Positions 11,923-33,015 of a stretch of 52,778 nt of DNA are shown here, one piece after another. Positions within the stretch are counted from its first letter, which is position 1. Each line of letters starts with the position of its first letter. This DNA comes from Enterococcus diestrammenae (GTDB taxonomy: Bacteria > Bacillota > Bacilli > Lactobacillales > Enterococcaceae): positions 1-52,778 of the forward strand of contig NZ_MAEI01000023.1 of the NCBI RefSeq assembly GCF_009933255.1, written 5' to 3'. The notes beneath the pieces were generated by a model. It had not been told where the DNA came from. It saw only the letters and a list, made by a program, of their open reading frames with translations, and made no database searches. The position numbers and the translations under genes are program-made.

Positions 11923-12828
11923 CTAACTAACATAAGTTGTGACGCGAATACTTTGATTATGGTTACCCCATTTTTCACCAAAAAGCGTCAGGCCACCGGC
12001 TTGCTCCGCGTTTTCTTCTGAAGCGATTCGCAAGGTGAAATAATCACTTCCTTCTAATCCGAGGTCATGAATATTTACATTGCTCGTGGGCACGCCATCA
12101 ATTCCCGTATCATATTGATTTATGCGTAAATGTTTTAATTCGCCATACTGACTGCAAGCGTCAGGCCACCACAAAGGGGTTAATAGCCCACGAACATCGG
12201 AATAATTTCCACCGACTGTATCTGTGGCTATTTTGATACCGTTGATGTAATAACTAATGTCGCTGGGCCAATTATTATTGGAGATGGGAAACTCAGAAGC
12301 AATCTCAAAACTAATGTCGATAAGCTCCAAGTGATCCCCTTTTTGGATCATATTTGGAACTTTGTACTCTAAATAGCCGCTGCCAATCCAGACAATCTGG
12401 GCATTGACCCGCTGGTTATCAAGAAAAGAACGTGGGTGATCTGCCATACCAATATGCGCGCTTTCGGAAGCGAGGCCGCAAGTAGGTACTGCGAGAAAGT
12501 CGGTAAAATGTCCAACGCTAACATCTGTTCGATAGTATCGATATTCCGGGAAGATTTTTTCTGGAAAATCGATAGTAATTTGATCAATGGCTAATGATGC
12601 GAGTTTTTGCAAGCCAAACTTTCCAGGACAACGACGGGTTTTGACAATCCCGGATTCTTCTAGCTGCTGGATATGACGGGTAGTAATAGCGTTTGAAATA
12701 TTGAGAGTCTTGGCTAGTTCGCCGATATTCATTTCATTTGTAGCTAACGCATTGATAATTTTTAAGCGAGTATCGTTGGCCAATGCTTGTAAGATCGGTA
12801 AAAAATTTTGAGAAGTATCGATAATCAT
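11923..12828 (-). CDS. ArsR-type HTH regulator fused to a conserved beta-rich domain (copy 1)
   Basis: This 301-residue protein has an ArsR-like winged helix at about residues 8-80 (ALANDTRLKIINAL, then SNAITTRHIQQLEESG as recognition helix) and a C-terminal domain of about 200 residues. It lacks the metal-binding ELCVCDL motif of classical ArsR. The C-terminal domain shares long blocks with copy 2 further right: PTCGLA, ISFEIASEFP, NNNWPSDIS, RGLLTPLWW, LKHLRIN, DTGIDG, GGLTLFG. It looks like a jelly-roll or galactose-binding-like fold, so a sugar sensor is plausible (inference). AAAGGAG precedes the ATG on the minus strand. The gene is divergent from a GH2 enzyme with a palindrome inside its promoter, which suggests direct control of that gene run. 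Confidence 0.85.
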   Translation of the reverse strand: MIIDTSQNFLPILQALANDTRLKIINALATNEMNIGELAKTLNISNAITTRHIQQLEESGIVKTRRCPGKFGLQKLASLAIDQITIDFPEKIFPEYRYYRTDVSVGHFTDFLAVPTCGLASESAHIGMADHPRSFLDNQRVNAQIVWIGSGYLEYKVPNMIQKGDHLELIDISFEIASEFPISNNNWPSDISYYINGIKIATDTVGGNYSDVRGLLTPLWWPDACSQYGELKHLRINQYDTGIDGVPTSNVNIHDLGLEGSDYFTLRIASEENAEQAGGLTLFGEKWGNHNQSIRVTTYVS

Positions 12829-12971
12829 TATTAGAAGCTCCTTTACTGTTAGGTTGAATTTAAGAGGAAATCAGAAAGATGACTTCCTCTTAGTTTTCTT
12901 GCTTGTTAAGTTAGTAAAGAATAAAGAGACACCGTTGACCAGTGATGGAAACGCTGTTATTCTTTTGATTG

Positions 12972-13000
12972 TTGATGTTAATATCAATTAACAATATAAT
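12972..13000 (+). promoter_or_regulatory. Predicted promoter of the GH2-GH92-GH127 gene run
   Basis: TTGATG (12972-12977), 17 bases, then a perfect TATAAT (12995-13000). Transcription would start near 13007. The spacer is almost entirely occupied by an 18-base palindrome, which implies repression by a bound regulator. Confidence 0.65.
12976..12993. promoter_or_regulatory. Candidate operator inside the GH2 promoter spacer
   Basis: TGTTAATATCAATTAACA is a perfect 7-bp inverted repeat with a four-base centre. Its place between -35 and -10 is where an ArsR-type dimer would block RNA polymerase. Binding by the adjacent ArsR-fusion protein is inferred. Confidence 0.55.
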
Positions 13001-13018
13001 TGTAGCTTTTTATTAACT

Positions 13019-13038
13019 TATAAGTCAAATGACTTATA
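13019..13038. promoter_or_regulatory. Second palindrome in the GH2 leader
   Basis: TATAAGTCAAATGACTTATA is a perfect 9-bp inverted repeat around AA, about 12 bases after the predicted start point and 23 bases before the GGAGG. Its sequence differs from the first palindrome, so it could serve a different protein, or form a leader hairpin near the ribosome binding site. Confidence 0.5.
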
Positions 13039-13075
13039 GAGAATATGATAAGCGTTTTGCGGAGGTTTTGTATCA

Positions 13076-14866
13076 ATGAACAGAAGAGAACACCCAAGAC
13101 CGCAGTTGATGCGAAGTAACTGGCAAATTCTTGATGGTAAGTGGGACTTTGCATTCGATGACGAAAATCAGGGTTTACTGAATCACTGGTATCAAAATTT
13201 ACCAGCGACCCATCAAATCAATGTTCCCTTTACTTATGAAACTCAATTAAGCGGTATTAACGATCCGTCTCATCACAAGATTGTGTGGTATCAACGTAGT
13301 TTTGAAGCTAGTGCTGAAAACCATGTGTTGTACTTTGAAGGAGTGGATTTTGAGACACAAGTTTGGCTCAATGGCCATTTGTTGGGTACCCATAAAGGTG
13401 GCTATGAACGTTTCTCCTTTGACTTAGAATCATATTTAACTGATGGGACAAATACGATTATCTTACGCATAGAAGATTCACTTTCTTGTGAACAACCTCG
13501 AGGAAAACAACGCTGGCTCAAAGATAATTTTGGATGTTGGTATGTTCAGACAACTGGGATTTGGAAGTCTGTTTGGCTAGAAAGAGCCCCCCTTCAGCGC
13601 TTAAAAGATTTGAAGCTGACACCAGATTTAGATCAGGATTTACTTAAAGTTGAGGTAAACCTGCAAGATGCGACGGTAATGCCAGATACACCGAATTATT
13701 TCGTAGAGGCAGAAGCACACTTTGACGGCCAATTGATTAGCTACCATAAGGGATTATTAGTTCATAACTTTTCTAGCTTTACCATGGATACCCGAGCAAA
13801 AGGTAACGCTGATTCCGGTACCCATCGCTGGACACCCCATACACCGAATCTATATGATTTGACGGTGCGTCTGTATGATACTGAGGGAACGCTACTTGAT
13901 GAAGTCTTCAGTTATTTCGGAATGCGAAAAATCAGTATCGAAAATGGTATGGTACTTTTAAATGATCGTCAACTGTATCAACGTTTGATATTGGATCAAG
14001 GCTATTGGCCAGAATCTGGAATTACGCCGCCGTCTGTCGATGCATTGGCTGAGGATATCGCTCATATCAAAGAAATGGGCTATAACGGATTGCGGAAGCA
14101 TCAGAAAATTGAGGATGAACGTTTCTTGTACTTATGTGACGAAGCAGGGATGTTAGTTTGGTCAGAAATGCCATCCACTTATGTTTTTAATGACAATGCT
14201 ATCGGTCAATTTACCGATGAATGGCTGCAAATCGTCAAGCAACAATACAATCATCCGTCTATTATCACTTGGGTACCTTTCAATGAAAGCTGGGGTATCA
14301 AAGGCATCAACCATTACCAACGTCCACAAGCCTTTACAGAAGGTATTTATCACCTGACTAAGGCAATTGATCCAAATCGACCAGTGATTACTAATGATGG
14401 TTGGGTGCATACGATTTCTGATATTTTGACTTTACATGATTATGAAGAAGCTGGAGCTGCCTTTGCTAAACGCTACTCGGATCATCAAGATTTTGCAGTA
14501 GAAGGCCACTCCAATAAAGAATATATTGTGGATAACAAGATTCAGTTTAATGATGGTTGGTTTGCTTTCGCTAAAGGCTACGAGTATCAAGGACAACCAA
14601 TTATTATCTCTGAATTTGGTGGTATTGCCTTTACGTTAGAAGGCGAAGGTCAATGGGGTTACGGCAATCAGGTGAAAAACGAAGCTGAATTTATGGCTCG
14701 TTTTGAAAAGATCCACGCAGCCATTCAAGATATTCCTTATATCACTGGTTATTGCTACACGCAGTTGACGGACGTGGAACAAGAAGTTAATGGCTTACTG
14801 ACGCCAGACCGTAAAGCAAAAGTTAATTTGGACGATGTGCGTCGAATTAATGAAAGACGGGTTTAA
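13076..14866 (+). CDS. GH2 exo-beta-glycosidase A (about 600 residues)
   Basis: This 596-residue glycoside hydrolase family 2 enzyme has the usual order: sugar-binding jelly roll (residues 1-170, starting EHPRPQLMRSNWQILDG), immunoglobulin-like domain (170-290) and TIM barrel (290-596). The expected acid/base is Glu404 in WVPFNESWG and the nucleophile Glu513 in IISEFGG. No signal peptide, so it acts in the cytoplasm. Family members of this length include beta-galactosidases, beta-glucuronidases and alpha-L-arabinopyranosidases, and the specificity cannot be told here. GGAGG (13061) precedes the ATG. It is the first gene after the operator-bearing promoter and closely resembles the GH2 gene at 31176-32945. 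Confidence 0.92.
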   Translation: MNRREHPRPQLMRSNWQILDGKWDFAFDDENQGLLNHWYQNLPATHQINVPFTYETQLSGINDPSHHKIVWYQRSFEASAENHVLYFEGVDFETQVWLNGHLLGTHKGGYERFSFDLESYLTDGTNTIILRIEDSLSCEQPRGKQRWLKDNFGCWYVQTTGIWKSVWLERAPLQRLKDLKLTPDLDQDLLKVEVNLQDATVMPDTPNYFVEAEAHFDGQLISYHKGLLVHNFSSFTMDTRAKGNADSGTHRWTPHTPNLYDLTVRLYDTEGTLLDEVFSYFGMRKISIENGMVLLNDRQLYQRLILDQGYWPESGITPPSVDALAEDIAHIKEMGYNGLRKHQKIEDERFLYLCDEAGMLVWSEMPSTYVFNDNAIGQFTDEWLQIVKQQYNHPSIITWVPFNESWGIKGINHYQRPQAFTEGIYHLTKAIDPNRPVITNDGWVHTISDILTLHDYEEAGAAFAKRYSDHQDFAVEGHSNKEYIVDNKIQFNDGWFAFAKGYEYQGQPIIISEFGGIAFTLEGEGQWGYGNQVKNEAEFMARFEKIHAAIQDIPYITGYCYTQLTDVEQEVNGLLTPDRKAKVNLDDVRRINERRV

Positions 14867-14934
14867 ACAGATTATATTTCTCTGAGTCATTAAAGAAATT
14901 AAATAATAAAACATAATTAAAGGAGTCTTTATCA

Positions 14935-17052
14935 ATGAATGTCAACCAAATCGACACGCGTCATGCAACGAGCAATTCATTTGAACTATCTCGAGGGAAC
15001 TGCTTTCCTTTTACCACTTTGCCGTTTGGAATGAACTTTTTTGCTGTTGAAACTCATGAGGACAATTGGTGGTTTCATCCAGAGGCCAAACATTTTCGAG
15101 GACTGCGATTGTCTCACCAGCCTACTATGTGGGCAGGAACAAAAGGAGATTTTTGCTCCGTTTGCTTGTTGCCATATACTCGTCCTACCAAGGGTTTAAA
15201 ATCAGTCTCTTATAGTCCGGAACGCTCAGAGTTCCATCCGCATTATCTAAAGATTAGTCAGCCGAATAATCAGTTGGAAACAAATGTTGTGCCAACAGAA
15301 TACGGAGCGGTAATTACTATGACGTCACCTCAAGATCAAAAAGGTGTATTAGTGAGTTTTCCGACTTCGGGAACAATTACCAAAGTTGAAGATAAGGTAA
15401 TTGAAGGATGGTCTGATCAGTTGCATACTCATGGCAAGGTGCCCCTGAAGTTGTATTTCCACATTGAGGTGGCAACTGGTGTGGCAAATTGGACTAGAAG
15501 AGATGATGATACCTACGAAATTGATTTCCAAGATACACCTACAGTAGAACTTCGGATGGGTACATCTTTTATTTCCTCCGCATATGCCGTGAAAAACACG
15601 CCTGTGGAACCGGTGTCCAAACTACAAGAAACCGCTGCTAATCTATGGAATGAGAAACTGGCCAAAATCGAAGTAACCGACTTGGATCAAACCAAAGTCA
15701 GCACCTTCTATCATAATTTGTACCGAACATTTCTGTATCCTCAACGGTTGTATGAATTTGACGAAACCGGTGAACCTGTTCACCGAGATGTATACGCCGA
15801 CGAAGTAAAGTCAGGCTATCTTTATATGAACAATGGGTTTTGGGATACAGCTCGAACTGTTTATCCATTATATTCTTTGATTGAAATGGAAGAATATCCA
15901 AAGATTTTGGAAGGCTTTTTGAATAGTTATAAAGAAAGTGGCTTCTTACCAAAATGGTTATCTCCAGAAGATTCTGGAGGGATGCCAGGGAACTATGTGG
16001 ACGCGGTGATTGCCGATGCGGCAGCCAAAGGGATTCGGATGGATTTGATGCCGGAATTTTTGGAAGGAATGCTTCATTCGGCGACGGTACAAGATGAAAA
16101 ACGCTCAGCTGGCCGCTCTTATTGCGCTGAATATTTGGAATATGGCTATGTGCCTCAAGATATGCATGAATCTGTCAACCATACCTTAGATTACTGCTAT
16201 AGTGATTATTGTATTTCGGTGGTGGCAGATAAATTAGGCGAGGTGGAACTTGCCAAAAAATATGCGGACCAATCCATGAACTACCGCAACCTCTTTTCGA
16301 AAGAAGACGGCTTTATGGTGGCTAAAGATCGTGAAGGAAATTTTAATGAAAACTTTAGTCCAATTTCATGGGGTGGGGATTACACAGAAGGTTGTGCTTG
16401 GCAATCCAGTTTTGCCGTCGTCCAAGATATCCAAGGTTTAATTAACCTTTACGGGAGCGACGAGGATTTTGAAGACATTTTGGTGCGCTTAGGTAATTCC
16501 AAACCAGCTTTCACTGTTGAAGGCTATGGTCACGTGATCCATGAAATGGCTGAAAGCGAGTACAATGGATTCGGTCAAATCAATGTTGGAAATCAGCCGA
16601 GCTTCCATTTGCCTTACCTCTACAGTTATATCGGGAAACCATATTATGCCCAACCTTTATTAAAACAAGCCATCAATCGTTTATTTAGTGATGGATGGCA
16701 AGGCTATCCTGGCGATGAGGATAATGGCAGCATGGCTACATGGTATATCTTCAACTCTCTAGGTTTCTATCCTTTCTGTCCAGGACATGACGAGTACTTG
16801 ATTGGTATGCCCAACTTTGACCAAGCTGTGCTACATCTGGCTAACGGCAAGGATGTTAGTCTGACTACTGAGATGAATAATCCGCAACAACAGTTTATTC
16901 ATCGAGTGACTGAATCTGGCGAGACCTATCATAAATCATTTATTGCTCATGATGATTTAGTGGCAGGGATGAACTTAAATTTTGAACTTGGTATGGTGCC
17001 AAATCCGAGATGTTTCGACCAAGAACGACCATTTAGTATGACCAAAAAATAA
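14935..17052 (+). CDS. GH92 alpha-mannosidase (intracellular)
   Basis: This 705-residue protein has the (alpha/alpha)6 features of calcium-dependent GH92 exo-alpha-mannosidases: GFWDTARTVYPLYSLI near residue 302, GNYVDAVIADAAAKGI near 353, and DEDNGSMATWYIFNSLGFYP in the last quarter, which corresponds to the conserved Asp/Gly/Met-Ser-Ala-Trp segment. The GAW or SMATW region is somewhat diverged from Bacteroides enzymes. No signal peptide is present, whereas most characterised GH92 enzymes are exported; mannosides must reach it after import. AAAGGAG precedes the ATG. It lies 68 bases after the GH2 gene and is followed by a stable hairpin without a U-tract. Confidence 0.92.
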   Translation: MNVNQIDTRHATSNSFELSRGNCFPFTTLPFGMNFFAVETHEDNWWFHPEAKHFRGLRLSHQPTMWAGTKGDFCSVCLLPYTRPTKGLKSVSYSPERSEFHPHYLKISQPNNQLETNVVPTEYGAVITMTSPQDQKGVLVSFPTSGTITKVEDKVIEGWSDQLHTHGKVPLKLYFHIEVATGVANWTRRDDDTYEIDFQDTPTVELRMGTSFISSAYAVKNTPVEPVSKLQETAANLWNEKLAKIEVTDLDQTKVSTFYHNLYRTFLYPQRLYEFDETGEPVHRDVYADEVKSGYLYMNNGFWDTARTVYPLYSLIEMEEYPKILEGFLNSYKESGFLPKWLSPEDSGGMPGNYVDAVIADAAAKGIRMDLMPEFLEGMLHSATVQDEKRSAGRSYCAEYLEYGYVPQDMHESVNHTLDYCYSDYCISVVADKLGEVELAKKYADQSMNYRNLFSKEDGFMVAKDREGNFNENFSPISWGGDYTEGCAWQSSFAVVQDIQGLINLYGSDEDFEDILVRLGNSKPAFTVEGYGHVIHEMAESEYNGFGQINVGNQPSFHLPYLYSYIGKPYYAQPLLKQAINRLFSDGWQGYPGDEDNGSMATWYIFNSLGFYPFCPGHDEYLIGMPNFDQAVLHLANGKDVSLTTEMNNPQQQFIHRVTESGETYHKSFIAHDDLVAGMNLNFELGMVPNPRCFDQERPFSMTKK

Positions 17053-17061
17053 ACAACTTTA

Positions 17062-17102
17062 TCACGAAATAAGCCACTGATCAAAAGTGGCTTATTCCGT
17101 GA
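17062..17102 (+). other. Intercistronic hairpin between GH92 and GH127 genes
   Basis: TCACG-A-AATAAGCCACT (17062-17078) pairs with AGTGGCTTATT-C-CGTGA (17086-17102), 16 of 17 pairs with one mismatch and a seven-base loop. No U-tract follows, so partial termination or mRNA processing is more likely than full termination. Confidence 0.55.
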
Positions 17103-17137
17103 CCTATCAAAGTCATTTCTTTCATAGGAGGCGTCAA

Positions 17138-18952
17138 ATGACAACTCAAATCAACTTCAACCAAGTCACCATCAACGATGATTTTTGGACTCCGAGACTG
17201 AATCAATGGAAAAAAGTTTTAATCCGGACCTGTTTAGATAAGTGCTATGAAAGTGGTCGCATAGATAATTTCAAAAAAGCGGGCGGCCTGATTCCTGGAG
17301 AATTTATCGGCATTTATTTCGATGATTCCGATGTCTATAAAGTACTAGAAGGTGCTGCCTATTTCTTGCAATTGGAAAAGGATCTTGAATTGGAAGCAGA
17401 GATTGATGAAATTATCAGTTATATCGCCGCTGCTCAAGAAGACGATGGCTATCTAGATACTTACTATACCTTGGTAGAACCTGAAAACAAATGGACAGAT
17501 ATGGAACGCCACGAAATGTATTGTGGTGGACATCTCATCGAAGCGGCGGTAGCTTATTTCCAAGCAACTGGCAAGCGGACTTTCTTAGATGTAGCGGAAA
17601 AAATGGTCAATCACTATTTGACGATTTTCGGTAGTGGCAAGCGCAATTGGGTAGAAGGCCACGAAGAAATTGAGCTGGCTTTAGTAAAATTGGCAAAAAC
17701 CACAGGCAAACAAGAATATCTCGATTTTGCTAAATGGTTGTTAGGTCAACGAGGCCATGGTCTAGGTGAAGGGATGATCTGGAACAAAGCCAATTGGGGC
17801 CCTGCTTACTGCCAAGATGATGTGCCAGTTGAGGATATCACTGAAGCGGTAGGACATTCGGTGCGGGCAGTTTATCTCTACACGGCGATGGCGGAAATTT
17901 TTGAGATAGATCATGATGACCGTTATTTTGCAGCCTTGGAAGTGGTCTGGGAAGACGTCACCACCAAGAAAATGTACATCACCGGTGGCATCGGTTCTTC
18001 TCGAGAAAATGAAGGGTTTAAAGAGGCGTACCATTTGCCAAACGAAAGTGCCTACTGTGAAACTTGTGCCGCTATCGGCGAAGTCTTCTTTAATCAGCAA
18101 ATGAATCTGATTACCGATGAAGCCAAGTATGCCGATATCATTGAACGGTGCATCTATAACGGGATTCTTTCAGGTATATCTCAAGAGGGAAATAAGTTTT
18201 TCTACACCAATCCTATGGCTTCTGTAGGGGATCATCATCGTAGTGAGTGGTTTGGAACTTCTTGTTGCCCAACAAACTTAGCTCGCTTTTTACCTTCATT
18301 AGGAAATTATATCTACAGTGAGTCCCTGGATAGTGAAACGTTGACGGTGAATCAGTATATTGGTAGTCAGTTTCATAAAGATGGAAGCGATAGCTGTGTA
18401 AGTATCACTTCCACTATGCCTTGGAACGGCAATGTTGGCGTGAAGATTGTCGGCGATACCGACTATCGTTCAATCCGTCTACGAAAACCTTTTTGGACAC
18501 GTAACTATACGGTGGCGGTCAACGGTCAAACAATGACTGTTCCGGTGGATGAGAAAGGTTACTTAAATATTGAATTATCTCCTGCTGTTACCGAAACAAC
18601 AATTGACTTAGTTTTTGAGAATACTGTAAGGGAAGTTTACGCCCATCGCAATGTTTTGAGCAATCGTGGAAAAGTAGCCATTATGAAAGATCCGTTGGTC
18701 TACTGTGCTGAAAAGGCAGATAATCCCCATCGCCTATACGATGAGTTTGCTTTGGAATCAGGAGCGAGCTATCAAATCAATTGGGATATGCAATTAGACT
18801 GTGAAAAATTAATTTTCACTAAAGGTATGACAGAGGGTGTAGAAAAGTCTCCCTTGCAGCTCCTTCCTTATTATGCGTGGGATAATCGTGGAGCCGGACC
18901 TATGAAAGTATGGTTAGATGGAATTCAAAGCAATAGCTTATATCACAATTAG
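17138..18952 (+). CDS. GH127 beta-L-arabinofuranosidase (DUF1680 family)
   Basis: This 604-residue cytoplasmic enzyme belongs to the HypBA1 family, which removes beta-L-arabinofuranose with a zinc-bound cysteine nucleophile. The zinc and nucleophile residues are all visible: Glu308 and Cys310 in YCETCAAIG, and Cys376-Cys377 in GTSCCPTNLARF, matching Glu338/Cys340/Cys417/Cys418 of HypBA1 in spacing and order. Other family blocks are EFIGIYFDDSDVYKVLEGAA and YITGGIGSS. The frame is open from a GTG at 17087, but that lies in a hairpin; AGGAGG (17126-17131) supports ATG 17138. GH127 in this setting points to plant arabino-glycans such as hydroxyproline-linked arabinosides, though other furanosides are possible. 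Confidence 0.93.
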   Translation: MTTQINFNQVTINDDFWTPRLNQWKKVLIRTCLDKCYESGRIDNFKKAGGLIPGEFIGIYFDDSDVYKVLEGAAYFLQLEKDLELEAEIDEIISYIAAAQEDDGYLDTYYTLVEPENKWTDMERHEMYCGGHLIEAAVAYFQATGKRTFLDVAEKMVNHYLTIFGSGKRNWVEGHEEIELALVKLAKTTGKQEYLDFAKWLLGQRGHGLGEGMIWNKANWGPAYCQDDVPVEDITEAVGHSVRAVYLYTAMAEIFEIDHDDRYFAALEVVWEDVTTKKMYITGGIGSSRENEGFKEAYHLPNESAYCETCAAIGEVFFNQQMNLITDEAKYADIIERCIYNGILSGISQEGNKFFYTNPMASVGDHHRSEWFGTSCCPTNLARFLPSLGNYIYSESLDSETLTVNQYIGSQFHKDGSDSCVSITSTMPWNGNVGVKIVGDTDYRSIRLRKPFWTRNYTVAVNGQTMTVPVDEKGYLNIELSPAVTETTIDLVFENTVREVYAHRNVLSNRGKVAIMKDPLVYCAEKADNPHRLYDEFALESGASYQINWDMQLDCEKLIFTKGMTEGVEKSPLQLLPYYAWDNRGAGPMKVWLDGIQSNSLYHN

Positions 18953-19015
18953 CAATATTATTTCAATTAAAGAAAATGATAAATATCTAGAAAAATTTAA
19001 ATTAGGAGTCTTAAA

Positions 19016-21013
19016 ATGACAACAATAACCCGAGCAGCATCGATTCCTTTAATTCTCAGTGACCCGTATTTTTCTATCTGGTCGCCGGCGGATCATCTCT
19101 ATGACTGTGACACTCAAAGCTGGACTGGTAAAGAACAGCCAGTACGAGGCTACGTGACGATTGGTCAGTCGACTTTTCGCTTTATGGGAGCTGACTCAGT
19201 CATACCGGCAATCCCTCAAACCGAAATGGCAGTGACTGCGACTCAAACCCGATACACCTTTGAAAATGAGCAAGTATTGCTAGAAGTGACTTTCTCGACT
19301 GATTTGGATTTGCAGGATTTGCATAAAATTTCCGAACCAGTGACAGCGATTACTACTCGAGCGGTAGCGAAAAATGGTGAGGATTCAGTGACTATCAGTC
19401 TCACGTTTTCAGAAGAGATTTGTCGCGACACAACTGTAAAAGAACCTTTGCATTGGCGCACCATCACTACACCAACGGCAAAACTTGTCTGGATGGGAAA
19501 AGGGCGTCAAACCCCACTGGATTCTTCTGGTGATTTAATTGATATCAATTGGGGCTACTTATATCTGGGGGCAGCAGCTGACTTAGACGTTACGTACCGT
19601 AAGAATCGTGATTTCTTGGTAGCGACTTATCCTGTGACTAGCAACAAGCAGTCCTTAGCAGATGCTTCCGGGACGACGATTTTGGTGGCTTATGATGATA
19701 TTCATTCAATTAATTATTTCGGTACCCCCACCAATGCCCTTTGGAAAGAAAAATACCGTGGCATGTGTGAGTTATTAGAAGTTTATTTGCAGGAATTGCC
19801 AGAACGCTTGGCAGATTGTAAGCGTATCGATCAAATGGTGACTGACGCTGCGACTGAAGCAGGTGGCAAAACCTTGGACTTGATCACGGCTTTTAGCTAT
19901 CGGCAATCGATTTGCGCTCATAAGCTGATTCGGGATCAAGAAGGAGAAATTGTTTTCTTATCCAAAGAAAATAGTTCCAACGGTTGTATCGGTACGGTGG
20001 ATATTAGTTATCCTTCTTCACCGTTGTACTTGTTGTGGCAGACCGAACTTTTGAAAGGCATGCTGCGTCCGGTTTATAAATTTGCAGCTATGCCTGTCTG
20101 GGAATTTGATTTTGCCCCTCATGACGTGGGTCGTTATCCTTATGCTACCGGGCAAGTTTATAGTGAAGTGCATCGCCCGGGCTCATTGGATTGGTCAGAC
20201 CGCGGCGGTTATGACACGCTTTATGACTATTACCAATTACCAGCTGGGCAAAATGTGTATACTGCTGATCATCAAATGCCTATTGAAGAATGTGGTAATA
20301 TGTTGGCTCTGGTTTCAGCAACTTATTTGCGAGACGGAGATAGCGCCTTTTTCAGTCGCTACTTAGAAACGAATCGTAAGTGGGCAGATTATCTGGCAGC
20401 GTTTGGTCAAGATCCAGAAAATCAGCTGTGTACGGATGATTTTGCGGGACACTTAGCGCATAACTGCAATTTATCGCTAAAAGCCATCACGGCATTGGCT
20501 CTATTTGGGAAAGCCTTGGTGCAATTTGGTGATGCGAAGGATGGCCAGCAATACAGCCAAAAAGCTCAAGCGATGGCGAAAATTTGGCAAGAGACTGCTA
20601 TCGCTGATGGCGATCATACTCCGCTAGCTTTTGATCGTCCAGATAGTTGGAGCTTAAAATATAACATCGTCTGGGATAAACTTTTCTCTTTGGATTTGTT
20701 CCCAACTGATTTGATGGCTAAAGAATTGGTGAAATATATTGAAGAAGCCAATGAATTTGGGACACCACTGGATCAACGGGCGACTTATACTAAGGCTGAC
20801 TGGCTGATGTGGGTAGCAATTTTTGCTCAAGATGCAGATACTTTGGAAAAAATAATCGGTCCAGTCGCGCATTATTTGCAAAATACACCAACACGAGTTG
20901 CGTTTTCGGACTGGTACGATACGCTAGATGGTCATCAAATGAACTTCAAAAACCGTTCAGTAGTCGGTGCGATGTTTATGCCGATGTTGGAGCGGGAGTT
21001 GAATAAAAATTGA
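19016..21013 (+). CDS. DUF4965/DUF5127 (GtaA-like) protein
   Basis: This 665-residue protein matches, by overall pattern, the family whose fungal members are called glutaminase A (DUF5127-DUF4965-DUF1793 order). The N-terminus SIPLILSDPYFSIWSPADHLYD, the central SYRQSICAHKLI and KENSSNGCIGTVDISYPSSP, and EFDFAPHDVGRYPYATGQVY are typical. The C-terminal half looks like an (alpha/alpha)6 barrel. No signal peptide. The glutaminase name is probably misleading for bacterial members found in glycan loci; a glycosidase-like role is inferred from the barrel and from its place between GH127 and a GH2 beta-galactosidase. TAGGAG precedes the ATG. Confidence 0.75.
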   Translation: MTTITRAASIPLILSDPYFSIWSPADHLYDCDTQSWTGKEQPVRGYVTIGQSTFRFMGADSVIPAIPQTEMAVTATQTRYTFENEQVLLEVTFSTDLDLQDLHKISEPVTAITTRAVAKNGEDSVTISLTFSEEICRDTTVKEPLHWRTITTPTAKLVWMGKGRQTPLDSSGDLIDINWGYLYLGAAADLDVTYRKNRDFLVATYPVTSNKQSLADASGTTILVAYDDIHSINYFGTPTNALWKEKYRGMCELLEVYLQELPERLADCKRIDQMVTDAATEAGGKTLDLITAFSYRQSICAHKLIRDQEGEIVFLSKENSSNGCIGTVDISYPSSPLYLLWQTELLKGMLRPVYKFAAMPVWEFDFAPHDVGRYPYATGQVYSEVHRPGSLDWSDRGGYDTLYDYYQLPAGQNVYTADHQMPIEECGNMLALVSATYLRDGDSAFFSRYLETNRKWADYLAAFGQDPENQLCTDDFAGHLAHNCNLSLKAITALALFGKALVQFGDAKDGQQYSQKAQAMAKIWQETAIADGDHTPLAFDRPDSWSLKYNIVWDKLFSLDLFPTDLMAKELVKYIEEANEFGTPLDQRATYTKADWLMWVAIFAQDADTLEKIIGPVAHYLQNTPTRVAFSDWYDTLDGHQMNFKNRSVVGAMFMPMLERELNKN

Positions 21014-24259
<3,246 letters not shown>

Positions 24260-24289
24260 GTGTTTAGCGGTTGGTAGTTATGAGTAATT

Positions 24290-24336
24290 AAAAACTGTCG
24301 GTAGGCCAAAAGTTTGGCGCTATCGACAGTTTTTTT
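24290..24336. terminator. Bidirectional terminator between lacZ and the second ArsR-type gene
   Basis: The stem ACTGTCG/CGACAGT continues into GTAG/CTAT and GCCAAA/TTTGGC, with a two-base loop and seven Ts on the right. AAAAA on the left makes it usable from the minus strand too, for the convergent regulator. Confidence 0.85.
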
Positions 24337-24409
24337 GCACTTGGTTGTTGTGGTCAGGAAAAGGGTCGCGGTGACTATGAAGGCAGGGGGATATTACCTT
24401 TAAAGGTAG

Positions 24410-25321
24410 CTATTTATCTAAATAATAAGTATTAATCACAATATCTTGATTGTGATTACCAAATCCCTTTCCGAATAACGTGAGGCCGCCTTTATTCACA
24501 GCGTCAGGTTCGACAGCTAACCGTAGTTTGATGAAGGGATTTTTGTTGAGGTTGAGGTCAGCTACCGTCACTGGAGAGTACGCCTCTCCATCGATACCAG
24601 TATCTAATTTATTGATTCGTAGGTGTTTTAATAGGCCGTATTGGCTGAATTCGTCGTTCCACCAAAGGGGAGTGTAACGCCCGCGAATATCTGAGAAATT
24701 ACCAGGAACAGTATAGACAGCTACTAAAATATCATTGACATAGATAGAGATATCGCTAGGCCAAACGTTATTGGATAGGGGGAATTCTGAGGCGATTTCA
24801 AAGCTGATTTCAAGCATATTAGGATCTTCATCTTCGGTTAGCATATTCGGGATTTTATATTCTACAAAACCCTCGCTAAACCACATCAGGCTGGCATCTA
24901 CTCTTTCAGGAGCCATAAAATATTTTGGATCATCTGATTTTCCAACTACATTTTTGGTAGTGGCTAAACCACAGGTGGGTTTTACATTGAAGTCTGTGAA
25001 GTGACCTAAGCGGAGGTTGGTTTGATGTAACTTATAACCTTGATAAACCTTTTCTGGGAAAGTGATATGAATATCGTCAACTTTTAAGAAGACCATTTTT
25101 TTGTTGCGATTTTCCCCGACACCTCTTTCGGAATTTAAAAGTCCAGCGTCTTCCATCTGTTGGACATGACGGGTGACGATGGCATTGCTCATATTTAGGT
25201 AGTCGGCAATTTCCCCGATACTTTTTTTGCGATTACCGATAAATTTCAACATCTTTAAACGAGTCTCGCTAGCGAGACATTCATAGACGGGTAAAGAATA
25301 TTTTTCTAAGTCTAACTCCAT
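24410..25321 (-). CDS. ArsR-type HTH regulator fused to a conserved beta-rich domain (copy 2)
   Basis: This 303-residue paralogue of the regulator at 11923-12828 has the same layout: winged helix at about residues 12-80 (LASETRLKMLKFIG, recognition helix SNAIVTRHVQQMEDAG) and a C-terminal beta-rich domain of about 200 residues. Shared blocks are PTCGLA, VEYKIPNM, ISFEIASEFPLSNN, WPSDIS, TPLWW, LKHLRIN, DTGIDG and GGLTLFGKGFGNHNQ. No classical metal site. AAAAGGAG precedes the ATG. It is divergent from the second importer, the normal placement for a dedicated regulator of that importer. What its C-terminal domain binds is not known; an imported sugar is inferred. Confidence 0.85.
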   Translation of the reverse strand: MELDLEKYSLPVYECLASETRLKMLKFIGNRKKSIGEIADYLNMSNAIVTRHVQQMEDAGLLNSERGVGENRNKKMVFLKVDDIHITFPEKVYQGYKLHQTNLRLGHFTDFNVKPTCGLATTKNVVGKSDDPKYFMAPERVDASLMWFSEGFVEYKIPNMLTEDEDPNMLEISFEIASEFPLSNNVWPSDISIYVNDILVAVYTVPGNFSDIRGRYTPLWWNDEFSQYGLLKHLRINKLDTGIDGEAYSPVTVADLNLNKNPFIKLRLAVEPDAVNKGGLTLFGKGFGNHNQDIVINTYYLDK

Positions 25322-25337: not shown

Positions 25338-25403
25338 TTAACTGAAAAGTAAAATAGATATCTTCACTTTCTATTGTAAATCAAGATGCTATTAACTGTA
25401 AAG
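25338..25403. promoter_or_regulatory. Direct repeats in the regulator 2 / importer 2 intergenic region
   Basis: TTAACTGAAAAG (25338-25349) and TTAACTGTAAAG (25392-25403) are identical at 11 of 12 positions and 54 bases apart. A looser form, TTTACTGTTAGG, lies upstream of the first ArsR-type gene (from 12842). They could be half-sites for the two paralogous regulators; this is weakly supported. Confidence 0.3.
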
Positions 25404-25434
25404 TTGTTTTTGATGATTATTGTAAAAATAGGAT

Positions 25435-25448
25435 TGATAGCGTTTGCA
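25435..25448 (+). promoter_or_regulatory. cre site (CcpA) upstream of the second importer
   Basis: TGATAGCGTTTGCA matches TGWAARCGYTWNCW at 13 of 14 positions. It lies 120 bases before the start codon and overlaps the best -35-like hexamer (TTGATA at 25434-25439), so catabolite repression of the second importer is likely. The -10 box is not clear. Confidence 0.6.
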
Positions 25449-25567
25449 TAAGCTGTTAATTTATAGATGCATCAAGCGAAAGAATCAATATTAATACTAA
25501 TTGGTTAAATCTATCAAAGCGTTGCATAAAAGTAGAAATAACCAAAAAGTAAAATGGAGGTAAGGAA

Positions 25568-26845
25568 ATGAACATCAAGAAATTAGCAGGCGTGGTATTG
25601 GTAGCAGGGGCAAGTGTTGCCTTGATGGCTGGTTGCGGTGGCGGAAGTTCGTCATCTGGAGGCTCTTCATCAAGCAAAAATGAGATCGTATTTTGGAATC
25701 CTTTCGTTGGTGAAGATGGGGACAATATGAAAGCAATGATTGACGCTTACAATAAAACCAACCCCGACTTCAAAGTCAAAAATGTTTCCTTAAAAGAAAG
25801 TGACATGTATACCAAAATCCCGACAGTTGTTAACTCAGGGAAAAATATCCCTGATTTGAATATTGTCCATGCGGAACGGATCAAACAGTATAAAGATAAT
25901 GACATGTTGGAAACCTATGACGATGTACTGGCAGATTATCCTGAAATAAAAGCAGATAACTATGTGCCAGAAGCTTGGAATTTAGGTGAAATTGATGGCG
26001 TTCGTTACAGCGTACCTTTGGATATTCATAGTTGGGGCGTTTACTACAATAAAGAATTAGTAGATAAATATCTACCAACTGCTTTGGATGATAATATTAT
26101 TACCTTTGATGAAGTAGAGGAAATCGGGAAGAAATCTGAAGCAGATGGTATCCGTGGCATGGGGATTACTTGGGCAAAACCAAACCTCTTGTCCTTGTAC
26201 GCCCAAGAAGGTGGTAAATTGACCGAAGATGGTACGACGCCAACACTGGATAACGATGCAATGAAGAAAGCCGTTCAACTTTATGCTGATTTATACAAAG
26301 AAAAAGTAACCACTCGCGATGGGGAAGATCCAGCACAATTATTCCTTTCTGGCAAAATGGTTCTCTATCCAGAAGGTATTTGGATGCGTAACCAAGTAAA
26401 AGAAGCAAAATTTGATTGGGGATTGACTAATTCACCACAATTGACAGATGACCTTTCTAAAGCAGTAAACTGGGCATCCTCTCACCAATTCGTGATGTTT
26501 AAAAACAAAGATCGTTCCGAAGAAAAAACAAAAGGGATCATGGAATTTTTGGAATGGGTACGTACAAACTCATTGGAATGGGCGAAAGCCGGTCAAAACC
26601 CAGCAACCCTTGATTTACTAGACAATTCTGAGTATACCGACATGGAACAATCTGTTTTCATTAATTCCCCAGAAGAACAAGCGACATTAACAATCTTTGA
26701 CTACAAATACAATGGCTATGTAGCTGAATACTTGGATGCGCATGCCTTAGATGTCACATTCGGTAAAATGACAGTCGATGACTTTACAGCTGGTTTGCAA
26801 AAAGAAGTTGCCGACAAAGTAGCAAAAGATAATTCAGGAAAATAA
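25568..26845 (+). CDS. Sugar ABC importer, substrate-binding lipoprotein (second system)
   Basis: This 425-residue CUT1-type solute-binding protein has a lipoprotein signal with lipobox LMAGC (Cys23), a Gly/Ser linker and the N-terminal strand EIVFWNPFVGEDG typical of maltodextrin/multiple-sugar binding proteins. It is 100 residues shorter than the LplA-type protein of the first importer and belongs to a different subfamily, so the two importers probably take different oligosaccharides. GGAGG (25556-25560) precedes the ATG. A hairpin follows, then the two permeases. Control by the adjacent ArsR-fusion protein and by CcpA is likely from the upstream sites. Confidence 0.93.
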   Translation: MNIKKLAGVVLVAGASVALMAGCGGGSSSSGGSSSSKNEIVFWNPFVGEDGDNMKAMIDAYNKTNPDFKVKNVSLKESDMYTKIPTVVNSGKNIPDLNIVHAERIKQYKDNDMLETYDDVLADYPEIKADNYVPEAWNLGEIDGVRYSVPLDIHSWGVYYNKELVDKYLPTALDDNIITFDEVEEIGKKSEADGIRGMGITWAKPNLLSLYAQEGGKLTEDGTTPTLDNDAMKKAVQLYADLYKEKVTTRDGEDPAQLFLSGKMVLYPEGIWMRNQVKEAKFDWGLTNSPQLTDDLSKAVNWASSHQFVMFKNKDRSEEKTKGIMEFLEWVRTNSLEWAKAGQNPATLDLLDNSEYTDMEQSVFINSPEEQATLTIFDYKYNGYVAEYLDAHALDVTFGKMTVDDFTAGLQKEVADKVAKDNSGK

Positions 26846-26878: not shown

Positions 26879-27002
26879 TTACATACTTTGACGGTAAAGG
26901 TTATGCCAGGTAAGCGCCGATAGCCTTGATTTGCTGTCGAAAGTAACCGTGGAAGAGAACTCTTCTTCTGCAAAAAAATTGCTTCAAGAAAGGAAAATAA
27001 AA

Positions 27003-27920
27003 ATGATGGCGACGAAAAATGAACCTCAAAATGCCGTGAAAAAAGGCAATAAGAACAAAAGCAAACTGATTCCTTGGCTGTTCGTTGCACCTCACTTAGT
27101 AATTTTTACAATCTTCTTTTTAATTCCAGTCATCTTTGGGATCTATATTTCTTTTACTGACTGGAATTTGTTTGGTGCGCCAACATTTACCGGACTAGAT
27201 AATTATAAGGAATTATTCTTTCAAAAAGATTCGACATTCTATGAACAGTTGCGAATTGGTTTATTTAATACCTTTAAGTTTGTCATCTTCTCCGTACCAT
27301 TTTGTATTGCGGTGCCATTGTTGCTAGCGGCTGCTCTCAATACGAAACCAAAGCTTGGAAAAATCTTTCAGTCGATTTTTTATATGCCGTCTCTTTTTGC
27401 TATTTCCGCAGTGGTGATTATTTGGACATTGATCTTTAACGTCAACTACGGTCCAGTGAATACCATATTAAATACAGATACCCCGTGGACTAGCACCCAG
27501 CCATATGCTTGGATAACGTTAGTCGTAGTGACAGTTTGGTGGACGATCGGTGGGAATATGGTTATTTATCAAGCCGCGTTAAATGGGATTTCTAAAGATT
27601 TCTATGAAGCAGCAGACATTGATGGAGCGACAGCCGTTCAAAAATTCATGAAGATTACCTTACCAGCCATTAAAGGCCAAATCCTTTATACCTTAGTGAT
27701 GACGACGATTGCCCAATTCAATATTTATGGACAACCTTTAATGCTGACTGGTGGGGGACCAAATAATTCCACACGAGTGTTGTTGATGTACATTCAGCAA
27801 AATGCCTTTGGTTCCGGTCAATCCATTGCAGGGATTGCTTCGGCGATGGCGGTTATTTTAGGGATTTGTATCATGATCGTGTCAGCGATTCAGTTTAAAC
27901 TGCTTCGCAAAGAAAACTAG
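27003..27920 (+). CDS. Sugar ABC importer, permease 1 (second system)
   Basis: This 305-residue CUT1 permease of the MalF/UgpA group has a basic N-terminus, about six transmembrane segments and the EAA loop YEAADIDGATAVQKFMKITLP. The frame is open back to 26931, but AAAGGA (26989-26994) is spaced for ATG 27003, with ATG 27006 next to it. It partners the next gene to form the channel. It ends two bases before the following Shine-Dalgarno core. Confidence 0.93.
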   Translation: MMATKNEPQNAVKKGNKNKSKLIPWLFVAPHLVIFTIFFLIPVIFGIYISFTDWNLFGAPTFTGLDNYKELFFQKDSTFYEQLRIGLFNTFKFVIFSVPFCIAVPLLLAAALNTKPKLGKIFQSIFYMPSLFAISAVVIIWTLIFNVNYGPVNTILNTDTPWTSTQPYAWITLVVVTVWWTIGGNMVIYQAALNGISKDFYEAADIDGATAVQKFMKITLPAIKGQILYTLVMTTIAQFNIYGQPLMLTGGGPNNSTRVLLMYIQQNAFGSGQSIAGIASAMAVILGICIMIVSAIQFKLLRKEN

Positions 27921-27932: not shown

Positions 27933-28778
27933 ATGAAAAAACATAAAAAACTCTCTGTCTCTCGGCTAGTTGCCTTCTTATTCTTGTTGGCGATGGCTTG
28001 TGTCTGGTTGATTCCGTTAGCTTACGGGGTATTAACGTCATTTAAATCGGAAATGGAATTGATGACTTCTGGTTTTAAGATTATGCCAATTGAATGGGTG
28101 CTGACGAACTATCAAGAATTATTGGTAGACAATACTAGCACGCCACTTGTCCGCTGGTTCTTGAATTCTTTGCTGATCTCTGTTTCTCACACATTACTGG
28201 TGCTATGCGTAGTGTCGTTATCTGCTTTTGCTTATAGTCGCTTACAGTTTAAAGGTAAAAATGCACTGTTTTCTTTCTTACTAGCAACTATGATGTTCCC
28301 AAGCGTGGTGAATCTGATTCCTTTATATAAAATTGTTGATATTCTCGGATGGGTGAATACACCACTTGCAATGATTATTCCTGGTGCATCAGGAGTCTTC
28401 AATATTTTCTTGGTGAAACAGTTTATGGGCAATATTCCGAAAGATTTTGATGAAGCAGCCCAAATTGATGGAGCTAGCGAAGGGACGATTTTTGTCAAGA
28501 TTATTTTGCCATTGATCAAACCTGTCTTGCTAGTGGTGGCATTGTTTGCCTTTACTGGCTCATGGAATGATTTCTTGTGGCCTTCCATTGTCTTCAATGA
28601 CATCGAAAAAATGCCGATCACTTCTGGGTTGCAGCTTTTACAAGGAATGTACGCTGCTAAACCAACTTTGTTAATGGCGGGAGCGTTAATTGCGATTGTC
28701 CCAACCTTTATCTTGTATCTGTTTGCGCAAAAATACTTCTTGGAATCCATGTCCTTGTCCGCCGGAGTGAAAGGATGA
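27933..28778 (+). CDS. Sugar ABC importer, permease 2 (second system)
   Basis: This 281-residue CUT1 permease of the MalG/UgpE group has about six membrane segments, an EAA loop (FDEAAQIDGASEGTIFVKIILP) and the C-terminus SMSLSAGVKG that is common in the family. AGGAGG (27919-27924) overlaps the stop codon of permease 1, so translation is tightly coupled. No ATPase gene follows; a shared MsmX-type ATPase elsewhere is expected. Confidence 0.94.
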   Translation: MKKHKKLSVSRLVAFLFLLAMACVWLIPLAYGVLTSFKSEMELMTSGFKIMPIEWVLTNYQELLVDNTSTPLVRWFLNSLLISVSHTLLVLCVVSLSAFAYSRLQFKGKNALFSFLLATMMFPSVVNLIPLYKIVDILGWVNTPLAMIIPGASGVFNIFLVKQFMGNIPKDFDEAAQIDGASEGTIFVKIILPLIKPVLLVVALFAFTGSWNDFLWPSIVFNDIEKMPITSGLQLLQGMYAAKPTLLMAGALIAIVPTFILYLFAQKYFLESMSLSAGVKG

Positions 28779-28784
28779 TTATTG

Positions 28785-29195
28785 ATGACACGAAAATTAG
28801 AACGTCGGTTAAGCACTGCAATGGGAGTCTGGCAAATTATTGATGGCTTAGTGACGATTATCTATTTTGGCTTGATTAAGTTGGCCCCTTTGACTGGGAA
28901 ATTAGGAAATGCCATCACGGAACAAGCCAGTCAAACCGTAAATAGCAGTATGTTTACCTTGACTTGTACTTTTGGGTCCTTATTAATCGGGCTGGGATTG
29001 TTAAATTTAGTTTCAGCTAAACGTTATTTAAAAGATGGTACAACCGCCAAAAAACATGGTCTCTTTCTTTTAGGCCAAGGATTATTCTCCTATTTTGTAT
29101 TGGATATCCCTTCAATGATCTTGGGGATTTGTAGTGGTGTGGTGTACTTTGCCAAAAATAAAGCATTGAAGCAACAAGCAGTTGCTCAATCATGA
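28785..29195 (+). CDS. Small integral membrane protein, unknown function
   Basis: I do not recognise this 136-residue protein. It has three or four hydrophobic segments (about residues 12-32, 54-78, 92-125) and short basic ends. AAAGGA (28770-28775) favours ATG 28785 over the TTG just before it. It starts seven bases after permease 2 and its stop codon lies beside the reading frame of the next GH2 gene, so it belongs to the importer operon. It occupies the position that the YesL-like protein holds in the first importer operon, though I see no sequence similarity between them. Confidence 0.7.
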   Translation: MTRKLERRLSTAMGVWQIIDGLVTIIYFGLIKLAPLTGKLGNAITEQASQTVNSSMFTLTCTFGSLLIGLGLLNLVSAKRYLKDGTTAKKHGLFLLGQGLFSYFVLDIPSMILGICSGVVYFAKNKALKQQAVAQS

Positions 29196-29230
29196 ACATG
29201 AAATTTGATTTGTCGGAAAGGAAGAAAAAA

Positions 29231-31036
29231 ATGAGAAATGAATACCCGCGCCCGCAGTTTGTTCGTAAAAACTGGCAAGATTTAAATGGCACTTGGCGCT
29301 TTGCTTTTGATGATCAAGATCGGGGAAATCAAGAAAAATGGTTTAATCACCCGGAAAAATTTGATCAAAAGATTGAGGTTCCTTTTGCCTATCAAACCAA
29401 ACTCAGTGGGATTGATAGTCAAGAGGTACATGATATCGTTTGGTATCAAAGAGAGTTTGACTGGCAGCAAGAAGCAGGCACTCGCTGTTTATTGCATTTT
29501 GGTGCGGTGGATTATCAGGCAGATGTCTATGTCAATGGCCAGTTAGCAGGAAAGCATGTGGGTGGTCATACCTCTTTTACAATGGATATCACTGATTTAG
29601 TTCAAGCCTCTGGAAATGTTTTGTCAGTTCGTGCCCAAGATTATCACGATGATGAAGAAATTCCTCGGGGAAAACAGTATTGGCATCCAGAATCAGCAGC
29701 TATCTGGTACACCAATACCACGGGGATTTGGCAATCGGTTTGGTTAGAGCCGGTGGGTAAAAACTATCTCCACAATGTGAAATTCACACCGGATTTGGAT
29801 ACAGATTCTGTGGCTATTGAGTTTCAGCTGAATCAGGCCGTGGAAAATCAGTATATTCGCTATTTTATTTCCTTTAAAGGTGAATTATTGGTGGAAGATA
29901 GTCTGAAGGTTACGAATGCTATTATGAGCCGAACCGTTCCAATTACCGCTGGCAAAATCGATCGAGGTAATTTCCACAATGATGGTTGGACTTGGACGCC
30001 AGCAAATCCCAATCTTTTTGATGTCGAAATGATCTTAGTTGATCAGCAAGAAGGGGTTCTAGATCAGGTCACTTCTTACTTTGGTATGCGAAAGATTCAC
30101 ACAGAAAAAGGCATGGTCTTCTTGAACAACCGGCCATTTTATCAAAAGTTAGTGTTGGATCAAGGCTATTGGCCTGATGGATTATTGACAGCACCTACTG
30201 ATGAAGACTTCATCAAAGACATCCAACTTTCCAAGGAAATGGGCTTTAATGGTTGTCGTAAACACCAAAAAGTTGAAGATCCACGCTTCTTGTATTGGGC
30301 GGACCAGTTGGGTTACTTGGTTTGGGGAGAATGCGCCTCTTCACCAATTTATACACCAAAAGCAGCAGCAGCTTTAACTGCAGAATGGTTTGAAATTATT
30401 GAACGGGATTACAATCATCCAAGTATTGTAACCTGGGTACCATTGAATGAAAGTTGGGGCGTACCTAATATCCATAATAATTCTCAGCAGCAAAACTTCT
30501 CTCAAGGAATCTACCATATGCTTCATGCTTTAGATGGTTCTCGACTGGTGATTTCCAACGACGGCTGGGAAATGACGGAAACGGATATTTGCGCTATTCA
30601 TAATTATTCCCACGGAGCCGCTGATGAAACGAAAAAATACCAACATTTTAAAGATACTTTGGCAACGGTTGGGGGGCTGATTGACATGCCTCCAGGAAAA
30701 TGGGGAATCTTTGCAGAAGGCTACGAATACCAAGGCCAACCGATTCTACTGACAGAATTTGGAGGTATTGGGTATAAGGTGGGTGATCAAGCTGGCTGGG
30801 GTTATACTACGGCCGAAAATGATCAACAGTATTTAGATGATTATGCCCGCATTATGGCAGCGATTTATGATTCTAAAGCGCTTTGGGGTTATTGCTATAC
30901 CCAGTTGACCGATGTGGAGCAAGAAATTAATGGGCTGTTAGCTTATGATCGCTCAGCAAAAGTTGATTTAGCAAAAATCAAAGAAATCAATGATCAGTAT
31001 TATCCAGAACGGATTGATATTTCCCATCAGTGGTAA
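29231..31036 (+). CDS. GH2 exo-beta-glycosidase B
   Basis: This 601-residue GH2 enzyme has the same three-domain layout as the enzyme at 13076 (NEYPRPQFVRKNWQDLNG start, immunoglobulin-like middle, TIM barrel). The acid/base is in WVPLNESWG and the nucleophile in LLTEFGG. It is clearly more diverged from the other two 600-residue GH2 proteins than they are from each other. The frame is open to ATG 29192, which overlaps the previous stop, but AAAGGAAG (29217-29224) and alignment with its paralogues favour ATG 29231. Cytoplasmic. Exact specificity (galactose, glucuronate or arabinopyranose) cannot be told. Confidence 0.9.
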   Translation: MRNEYPRPQFVRKNWQDLNGTWRFAFDDQDRGNQEKWFNHPEKFDQKIEVPFAYQTKLSGIDSQEVHDIVWYQREFDWQQEAGTRCLLHFGAVDYQADVYVNGQLAGKHVGGHTSFTMDITDLVQASGNVLSVRAQDYHDDEEIPRGKQYWHPESAAIWYTNTTGIWQSVWLEPVGKNYLHNVKFTPDLDTDSVAIEFQLNQAVENQYIRYFISFKGELLVEDSLKVTNAIMSRTVPITAGKIDRGNFHNDGWTWTPANPNLFDVEMILVDQQEGVLDQVTSYFGMRKIHTEKGMVFLNNRPFYQKLVLDQGYWPDGLLTAPTDEDFIKDIQLSKEMGFNGCRKHQKVEDPRFLYWADQLGYLVWGECASSPIYTPKAAAALTAEWFEIIERDYNHPSIVTWVPLNESWGVPNIHNNSQQQNFSQGIYHMLHALDGSRLVISNDGWEMTETDICAIHNYSHGAADETKKYQHFKDTLATVGGLIDMPPGKWGIFAEGYEYQGQPILLTEFGGIGYKVGDQAGWGYTTAENDQQYLDDYARIMAAIYDSKALWGYCYTQLTDVEQEINGLLAYDRSAKVDLAKIKEINDQYYPERIDISHQW

Positions 31037-31129: not shown

Positions 31130-31137
31130 GTGAGTAA

Positions 31138-31161
31138 TGGTAATCATTATCAAAATGATAA
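31138..31161. promoter_or_regulatory. Palindromic site before GH2 C
   Basis: TGGTAATCATTATCA (31138-31152) matches the 7-1-7 Fur-type box TGATAATNATTATCA at 14 of 15 positions, and TTATCA-AAA-TGATAA (31147-31161) is a second perfect inverted repeat overlapping it. It lies directly before the ribosome binding site. AT-rich chance similarity is possible. Confidence 0.3.
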
Positions 31162-31175
31162 AGGAGCTATATCAA

Positions 31176-32964: not shown

Positions 32965-32999
32965 AGGAGAACCAGTGGCTTGCAGTCGCTGGTTCTCCT
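32965..32999 (+). terminator. Hairpin between GH2 C and the GH43 gene
   Basis: An 11-bp perfect stem, AGGAGAACCAG/CTGGTTCTCCT, has a 13-base loop. Only two Ts follow, so termination would be partial. The GH43 gene starts 17 bases later and has no obvious promoter of its own. Confidence 0.5.
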
Positions 33000-33015
33000 T
33001 AAAATGGAGAGACGG

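Follow-up and report, generated by a model that had tools for sequence, protein, structure and literature searches.

A 52,778-nucleotide stretch of Enterococcus diestrammenae DNA (RefSeq assembly GCF_009933255.1, contig NZ_MAEI01000023.1), referred to as the window, encodes two paralogous regulators, copy 1 (P0001) and copy 2 (P0002), which combine an ArsR-type winged helix with a C-terminal beta-sandwich resembling carbohydrate-binding modules (CBM). Both are probably cytosolic one-component repressors in which the CBM6/35-like sandwich serves as oligosaccharide sensor, and which would be released from their operators by the imported sugar. An original prediction, made from the window alone, had described two ArsR-type fusions divergent from glycan genes. 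This observation was confirmed, and the interpretation attached to it was partly supported.

ArsR proteins are classically known as sensors of metals and redox state. The ArsR/SmtB metalloregulators carry Cys/His metal ligands in helix alpha-3 or alpha-5, the latter being the usual dimer helix. Both copies belong to the ArsR superfamily by their winged helix, which scored 43.6 bits (copy 1) and 36.1 bits (copy 2) with Pfam HTH_5 (curated cut-off 22). They align without gaps over 299 residues (49% identity, E 2e-112), and the blocks ISFEIASEFP, WPSDIS, TPLWW, LKHLRIN and DTGIDG, predicted to be conserved, were all found in both open reading frames. The predicted absence of classical metal sites was borne out as well. 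Within residues 1-88, His52 was the only column of alignment A1 (63 rows) with mostly Cys or His (Asp/Glu ligands lie outside this count), and no Cys/His ligands of the metalloregulator type were found in alpha-3 or alpha-5. The predicted model has no alpha-5 helix at its ArsR position, and both copies scored below the cut-off of 55 of the NCBIfam metalloregulator model NF033788 (50.7 and 37.2 bits). In contrast to CzrA, CadC and SmtB, the regulators thus lack alpha-5 and the metal-site Cys/His, and carry about 210 extra residues.

No Pfam match was obtained at E ≤ 1 for the C-terminal two thirds of either copy. Sequence searches of the PDB, with a single query and with a 63-row profile, retrieved essentially winged-helix proteins alone; the one match to the C-terminal domain, from the single query, was weak and non-significant (E 0.19). 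The predicted model of this domain is a beta-sandwich of the CBM6/CBM35/CBM36 type, in agreement with the jelly-roll look proposed originally. Most of its structural matches were CBMs or other proteins active on carbohydrates, and the titles of several CBM entries among them indicate that the structure was solved with saccharide chains. The domain did not turn out to be a known non-carbohydrate fold in structure prediction and fold search. It differs from CBM6, CBM35 and CBM36 modules in being cytosolic, fused to a DNA-binding domain and about 80 residues longer, with conserved insertions, and in having no sequence match to a CBM family. Across the 63 rows, P188, S189, D190, D211, W220, W221, Q227, Y228 and N289 are invariant, and W187 is almost so.

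Copy 1 is divergent from a GH2 gene (start 13076, gap of 247 bases) and copy 2 from a solute-binding protein (SBP) gene (start 25568, gap of 246 bases), so that each copy faces glycan-utilisation genes as predicted. In order to survey this arrangement, the best 80 of 323 confirmed loci found in a scan of named genomes were used, and the survey therefore leans to close relatives. Neighbouring open reading frames were called mechanically and clustered by BLAST, the clusters being named by Pfam on one or few members. The immediate 5' neighbour was a divergent SBP gene in 60 of the 80 loci, followed by GH51 (6), GH2 (3) and GH43 (3); the remaining loci showed a glutaminase-A-like (GtaA-like) gene (1), an acetyltransferase-type gene (1), other divergent genes (2), same-strand genes (3) or a contig end (1). 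Within the examined flank, GH2, GH43, GH51 or GH127 was present in 67 loci, an ABC sugar gene in 71, and either of them in 76. In a second sample, 27 of 40 matches outside the window's own genome yielded loci (398 Bacillota genomes), 24 of which had a glycan or importer gene within about 1.5 kb. As a control, 30 HTH_5 loci were taken from ten genomes of the same genus as the window, several of these loci being mutual orthologues. None of the 28 short ArsR proteins among them had an SBP, permease or GH2/43/51/127 neighbour, and two (L157 and L158) had a MocA-like neighbour. The other two were a long open reading frame of another kind (L149) and a member of the CBM-like-domain family adjoining GH51 (L156). 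The homologues retrieved thus lie mostly at glycan genes, not away from them, unlike the short ArsR genes of the genus.

A symmetric motif search in 75 divergent regions yielded the palindrome TTAAC-N6-GTTAA. These regions came from 73 of the 80 loci and from the two copies of the window; seven loci were left out because of a contig end (L032), a same-strand neighbour (L052, L055, L066) or a region above 500 bases (L041, L043, L045). The pattern was derived from these very regions, and they are not 75 independent cases, since many loci are close relatives. The best match per region was exact in 41, and had one mismatch in 30, two in 3 and three in 1, as compared with 0.16 exact and 4.4 one-mismatch regions in dinucleotide shuffles. 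At least two sites with at most one mismatch were found in 39 regions, and such a site lay within 80 bp of the regulator start in 36 and of the divergent start in 43. The window sites are weaker than many of the relatives' sites, none being exact. At copy 1, the -35-like hexamer of the predicted regulator promoter falls inside the best site (13013-13028), and a spacer of 12 bases lies between this site and the -10-like hexamer of the predicted promoter toward GH2, which precedes it. Promoter-like matches numbered 4 in the copy 1 region (1.2 expected from shuffles) and 3 in the copy 2 region (2.0 expected). An unconstrained motif search revealed a second motif, a cre-like box, in 56 of the 75 regions. 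Defining a regulon by a genome-wide scan for the palindrome was ruled out: 89 places with at most one mismatch were found versus 369 for the pattern read backwards, and 38 places in the window at up to two mismatches versus 34.3 expected. By itself the pattern is too weak, and it is meaningful in divergent regions only. Two terminator-like hairpins lie upstream of copy 1 at 12930-12956 (2 versus 0.0 expected in shuffles), and the plus-strand hairpin stem resembles a cre box by eye.

At E ≤ 1e-3, relatives fell into 1383 clusters with copy 2 as query and 1407 with copy 1, the best 120 of each being listed. A Caldicellulosiruptor-like query gave 7313 clusters among 7998 scored candidates; the best 120 were listed, and the sensor domain is not implied for every cluster. 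Where the matches listed carried a name, most were called 'ArsR/SmtB family transcription factor' or simply a transcriptional regulator, and the former label invites a metal reading. The 80 loci retained came from Enterococcus, Vagococcus, Listeria, Bacillus, Niallia, Lederbergia, Paenibacillus, Trichococcus, Alkalibacterium, Fundicoccus, Lachnospiraceae and others. The family was found in 23 of 398 evenly drawn Bacillota genomes (the window's own counted), some with four or five copies. One 409-residue member (P0173) contains two internal repeats of itself, which probably arose in the assembly.

The E. diestrammenae genome carries four copies. Copy 1 is divergent from GH2-GH92-GH127-GtaA-like-GH2, copy 2 from SBP-permease-permease-137 aa-GH2-GH2-GH43, and copy 3 from SBP-permease-permease-132 aa-GH43-GH43-GH51-GH43, while copy 4 lies on the same strand as GH51, downstream of it (BLAST to named clusters for copies 3 and 4). 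In a tree of 85 rows, copy 1 grouped with three GH2-linked Enterococcus proteins (98, starred) and copy 2 fell within a set of 14, all SBP-linked (100, starred). Partner type was clustered on the tree, with 9 changes versus a shuffled mean of 21.5 and none of 200 shuffles as low; near-copies inflate this clustering, and the long branches (copy 4 and the Caldicellulosiruptor-like row) are loosely placed. The original description as 'paired' regulators is overstated, because the genome has four copies and those of the window belong to different starred subclades; they are two of four paralogues rather than a matched pair.

A candidate new class of sugar sensor had also been proposed. In the parts of PMC8579813 considered here, ArbA of Caldicellulosiruptor is named the first ArsR-family regulator of carbohydrate utilisation; it is divergent from the arabinofuranosidase gene abfA, has three predicted sites and is a predicted repressor, the name being also printed as ArbR where the repressor is inferred from mapped start sites. 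An ArsR protein at sugar genes, already published as a prediction, is therefore not new; only the sensor domain is, and those parts of the article describe no effector domain. A Caldicellulosiruptor-like full-length member of the family (L099/L162), found with alignment A1 at E 4e-100, is divergent from a GH51 gene, and the name Caldicellulosiruptor sp. F32 is attached to a match that shares 90% identity with it; the gene layout at L099 suggests that this member may be ArbA. In seven Caldicellulosiruptor-type genomes the neighbour was GH51 (3), a permease (2), an SBP (1) or none (1). Table 7 of PMC4428132 places an ArsR-family gene in the arabinan cluster of Geobacillus 56T3 beside an SBP, two permeases, GH43 and a GH2 annotated as alpha-L-arabinofuranosidase, the same gene kinds as behind copy 2; this regulator is named in the table only, and was likened to the window copies by description, not by sequence. 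Among other sources, each considered in part, PMC4855831 shows an ArsR gene within the ara cluster of Lactobacillus rossiae, PMC3616900 mentions ArsR for metals only, and the genome paper PMC11575207 relates six additional ArsR genes to a possible tolerance of metals (cited for the labelling, family membership not being implied). No account of a CBM-like domain in an ArsR protein was found in the literature search, which left most subscription journals outside. The sensor domain, the breadth of the family and the TTAAC palindrome were likewise not encountered in the literature searched.

In the proposed mechanism, the ArsR-type winged helices of a putative dimer would bind TTAAC-N6-GTTAA between the regulator gene and the divergent glycan operon, and would block the promoters of both. 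The CBM6/35-like sandwich would stand in for the alpha-5 helix and the metal sites. Upon delivery by the importer, an oligosaccharide would bind the sandwich and change the shape of the dimer, the DNA would be freed, and importer and glycosidases would be produced; at loci with a cre-like box, repression by glucose through CcpA may come on top. Divergent genes, and operators that overlap or adjoin predicted promoters, are consistent with repression that the imported substrate relieves. Of the sugars named originally (mannose, galactose and arabinose), the partner enzymes point to arabinose, in its furanose form, more than to mannose. Because GH43, GH51, GH127 and GH2 recur, arabinofuranose-containing oligosaccharides are the likeliest putative ligand; the GH2 clue comes from the Geobacillus annotation, and the two GH2 groups were likened by family name alone. 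Mannose is hinted at only by the GH92 gene behind copy 1, for which mannose-containing glycans are a possible ligand.

Several results weigh against this oligosaccharide-released repressor. Foldseek did not rank CBMs first: TtX122A, whose function is unknown, headed its list, Cry toxins and legume lectins came next, and CBM6E and Xyn30D took the ninth and twelfth places. TM-scores on the query were just 0.19-0.41 for the entries listed. Cry toxins and ephrin receptors, which have the same sandwich, made up 15 of the 50 VIA rows; the fold is therefore no proof of sugar binding. The full-length model had a pTM of 0.70, which leaves the domain orientation uncertain. Pfam searches of 51 members at E ≤ 10 detected no CBM family and gave scattered weak matches, the best being GH28 (0.012, in 3 of 51). 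Alignment A2 of the domain was compared by hhalign with 20 CBM35 and 19 CBM6 segments (picked from 30 loci each) and seven comparison profiles. All probabilities were at most 1.4%, the highest being that of the GH2 N-domain (1.4%), followed by CBM35 (1.3%), with CBM6 at 0.9%; neither Pfam nor profile-profile comparison thus assigns the domain to the CBM6/CBM35 sequence families. A viral fold library returned phage proteins, many uncharacterized or winged-helix, whose TM-scores were low across most of the model, and was not used. As to gene context, four of the 80 loci (L032 at a contig end, L049, L052, L063) have neither importer nor such hydrolase genes in the flank, and three of the 27 loci of the second sample (L094, L096, L104) lack a glycan or importer gene, L104 being convergent to a ZnuA-type zinc-uptake gene. 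Finally, no palindrome with at most one mismatch was found in seven Caldicellulosiruptor-like upstream regions, a further difference from ArbA (a two-mismatch place occurs in 3 of 7). Six of them share another dyad, TATTTT-N10-AAAATA, and DNA specificity may therefore have drifted with the subclade.

AraR- and LacI-type regulators commonly sense monosaccharides. A regulator of the adjacent operon that senses a downstream monosaccharide or sugar phosphate (e.g. L-arabinose), or that acts as an activator, is an unlikely alternative to the repressor proposed here. In its favour, just 96 of the 132 sites with at most one mismatch lie within 80 bp of a start codon, so that some could be activating. 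The saccharide chains in the matched CBM entries argue against it, and so does the best window site, whose position on one -35-like hexamer and just behind the other promoter's -10-like hexamer suits repression. The part of PMC8579813 dealing with mapped start sites also infers a repressor.

Less probable still is a beta domain that has no ligand and serves dimerisation or protein docking instead; a partner, for example the transporter or the 137-residue protein, would then supply the signal. The sandwich takes the place of the usual dimer helix, ephrin receptor ligand-binding domains share its fold, and the 137-residue cluster is present in 43 of the 80 loci; the other 37 lack it in the examined flank, and the invariant aromatic and polar residues may form a pocket. 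A conventional ArsR-type sensor of metals or thiols that has gained an additional domain appears very improbable. Cys117, its candidate sensing residue, is invariant in all 63 rows of A1 and His107 occurs in 57, and one relative adjoins the ZnuA gene mentioned above. Against such a sensor speak the winged helix without a Cys/His pattern, the Asn in place of His107 in the Caldicellulosiruptor-like member, and neighbours that are mostly glycan rather than metal genes.

Features of the two regulators, their divergent regions and the adjacent gene blocks in the window.
Feature	Position	Strand	Remarks
Regulator copy 1 (P0001, 301 aa), ArsR-type winged helix and CBM-like domain	11923..12828	-	
Copy 1 winged-helix DNA-binding domain	12565..12828	-	residues 1-88
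Copy 1 C-terminal beta-sandwich, putative oligosaccharide sensor	11926..12564	-	residues 89-301
Regulator copy 2 (P0002, 303 aa), architecture as copy 1	24410..25321	-	
Copy 2 winged-helix domain	25058..25321	-	residues 1-88; Pfam HTH_5 at 18-64
Copy 2 C-terminal beta domain	24413..25057	-	52% identity to copy 1 here (alignment A2)
Predicted operator TTAAC-N6-GTTAA	13013..13028		1 mismatch; copy 1 divergent region
Weak operator-like site	12894..12909		2 mismatches; offset -73, near site (-72 or -73) in L001-L003
Weak operator-like site	12842..12857		2 mismatches; offset -21, near site (-20) in L001-L003
Predicted operator	25338..25353		1 mismatch; copy 2 divergent region, close to the regulator start
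Weak operator-like site	25392..25407		2 mismatches; overlaps -35-like hexamer of regulator copy 2 promoter
Weak operator-like site	25538..25553		2 mismatches; 14 bases ahead of SBP start codon
Promoter-like TTGACT-18-TACAAT, toward regulator copy 1	12999..13028	-	consensus match only
Promoter-like TTGATG-17-TATAAT, toward GH2 block	12972..13000	+	consensus match only
Promoter-like TTTACA-18-TACAAT, toward regulator copy 2	25373..25402	-	consensus match only
cre-like (CcpA) box, copy 2 divergent region	25432..25449		second motif, score 12.9
GH2, divergent, first predicted target of copy 1	13076..14866	+	Pfam
GH92 (alpha-mannosidase family)	14935..17052	+	Pfam; putatively co-transcribed
GH127 (beta-L-arabinofuranosidase family)	17087..18952	+	Pfam; putatively co-transcribed
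Glutaminase-A-like / DUF4964-DUF5127 protein	19016..21013	+	Pfam; putatively co-transcribed
GH2 LacZ-type beta-galactosidase	21419..24259	+	405 bases past preceding gene; co-transcription uncertain
SBP of sugar-type ABC importer, divergent, first predicted target of copy 2	25568..26845	+	SBP_bac_1/SBP_bac_8
ABC permease	26931..27920	+	BPD_transp_1
ABC permease	27933..28778	+	BPD_transp_1
137-aa protein	28782..29195	+	no Pfam match; cluster in 43/80 loci
GH2	29192..31036	+	Pfam
GH2	31137..32945	+	Pfam
GH43	32980..34602	+	Pfam

The 137-residue protein comes after the importer genes, and this position, together with its recurrence, suggests that it may be an accessory importer part. At the edge of a second sugar block, 190-1287 encodes a GntR head with a periplasmic-binding-protein-like sensor, an AraR-like layout. 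Two permease genes, DUF624, an SBP-like gene and, at 8654-11776, a GH38 gene belong to this block. A 718-residue protein encoded in the glycan block (6347-8503) has no Pfam match at E ≤ 1e-4. Elsewhere in the window, a xanthine/uracil-type permease gene lies near a molybdenum-hydroxylase-type gene (41779-44073) within 38610-44073, and genes for a patatin-like phospholipase and a Fic/DOC protein are located at 46025-47932 and 51340-52593, respectively.

Taken as a whole, the regulators form a widespread and almost unstudied family, located next to import and cleavage genes for plant-type sugars, which probably senses oligosaccharides inside the cell. The chances appear about even that thousands of such cytosolic regulators exist, in which a CBM fold has taken the place of the ArsR dimer helix and metal site and directly recognises imported oligosaccharides while they are intact (probably arabinofuranosides), so as to control the adjacent importer and glycosidases. 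If the sensor is CBM-like, a regulator could be assigned to many glycan-use operons of Bacillota, together with an operator motif and a hypothesis on the ligand, and oligosaccharide biosensors could draw on a new sensor part.
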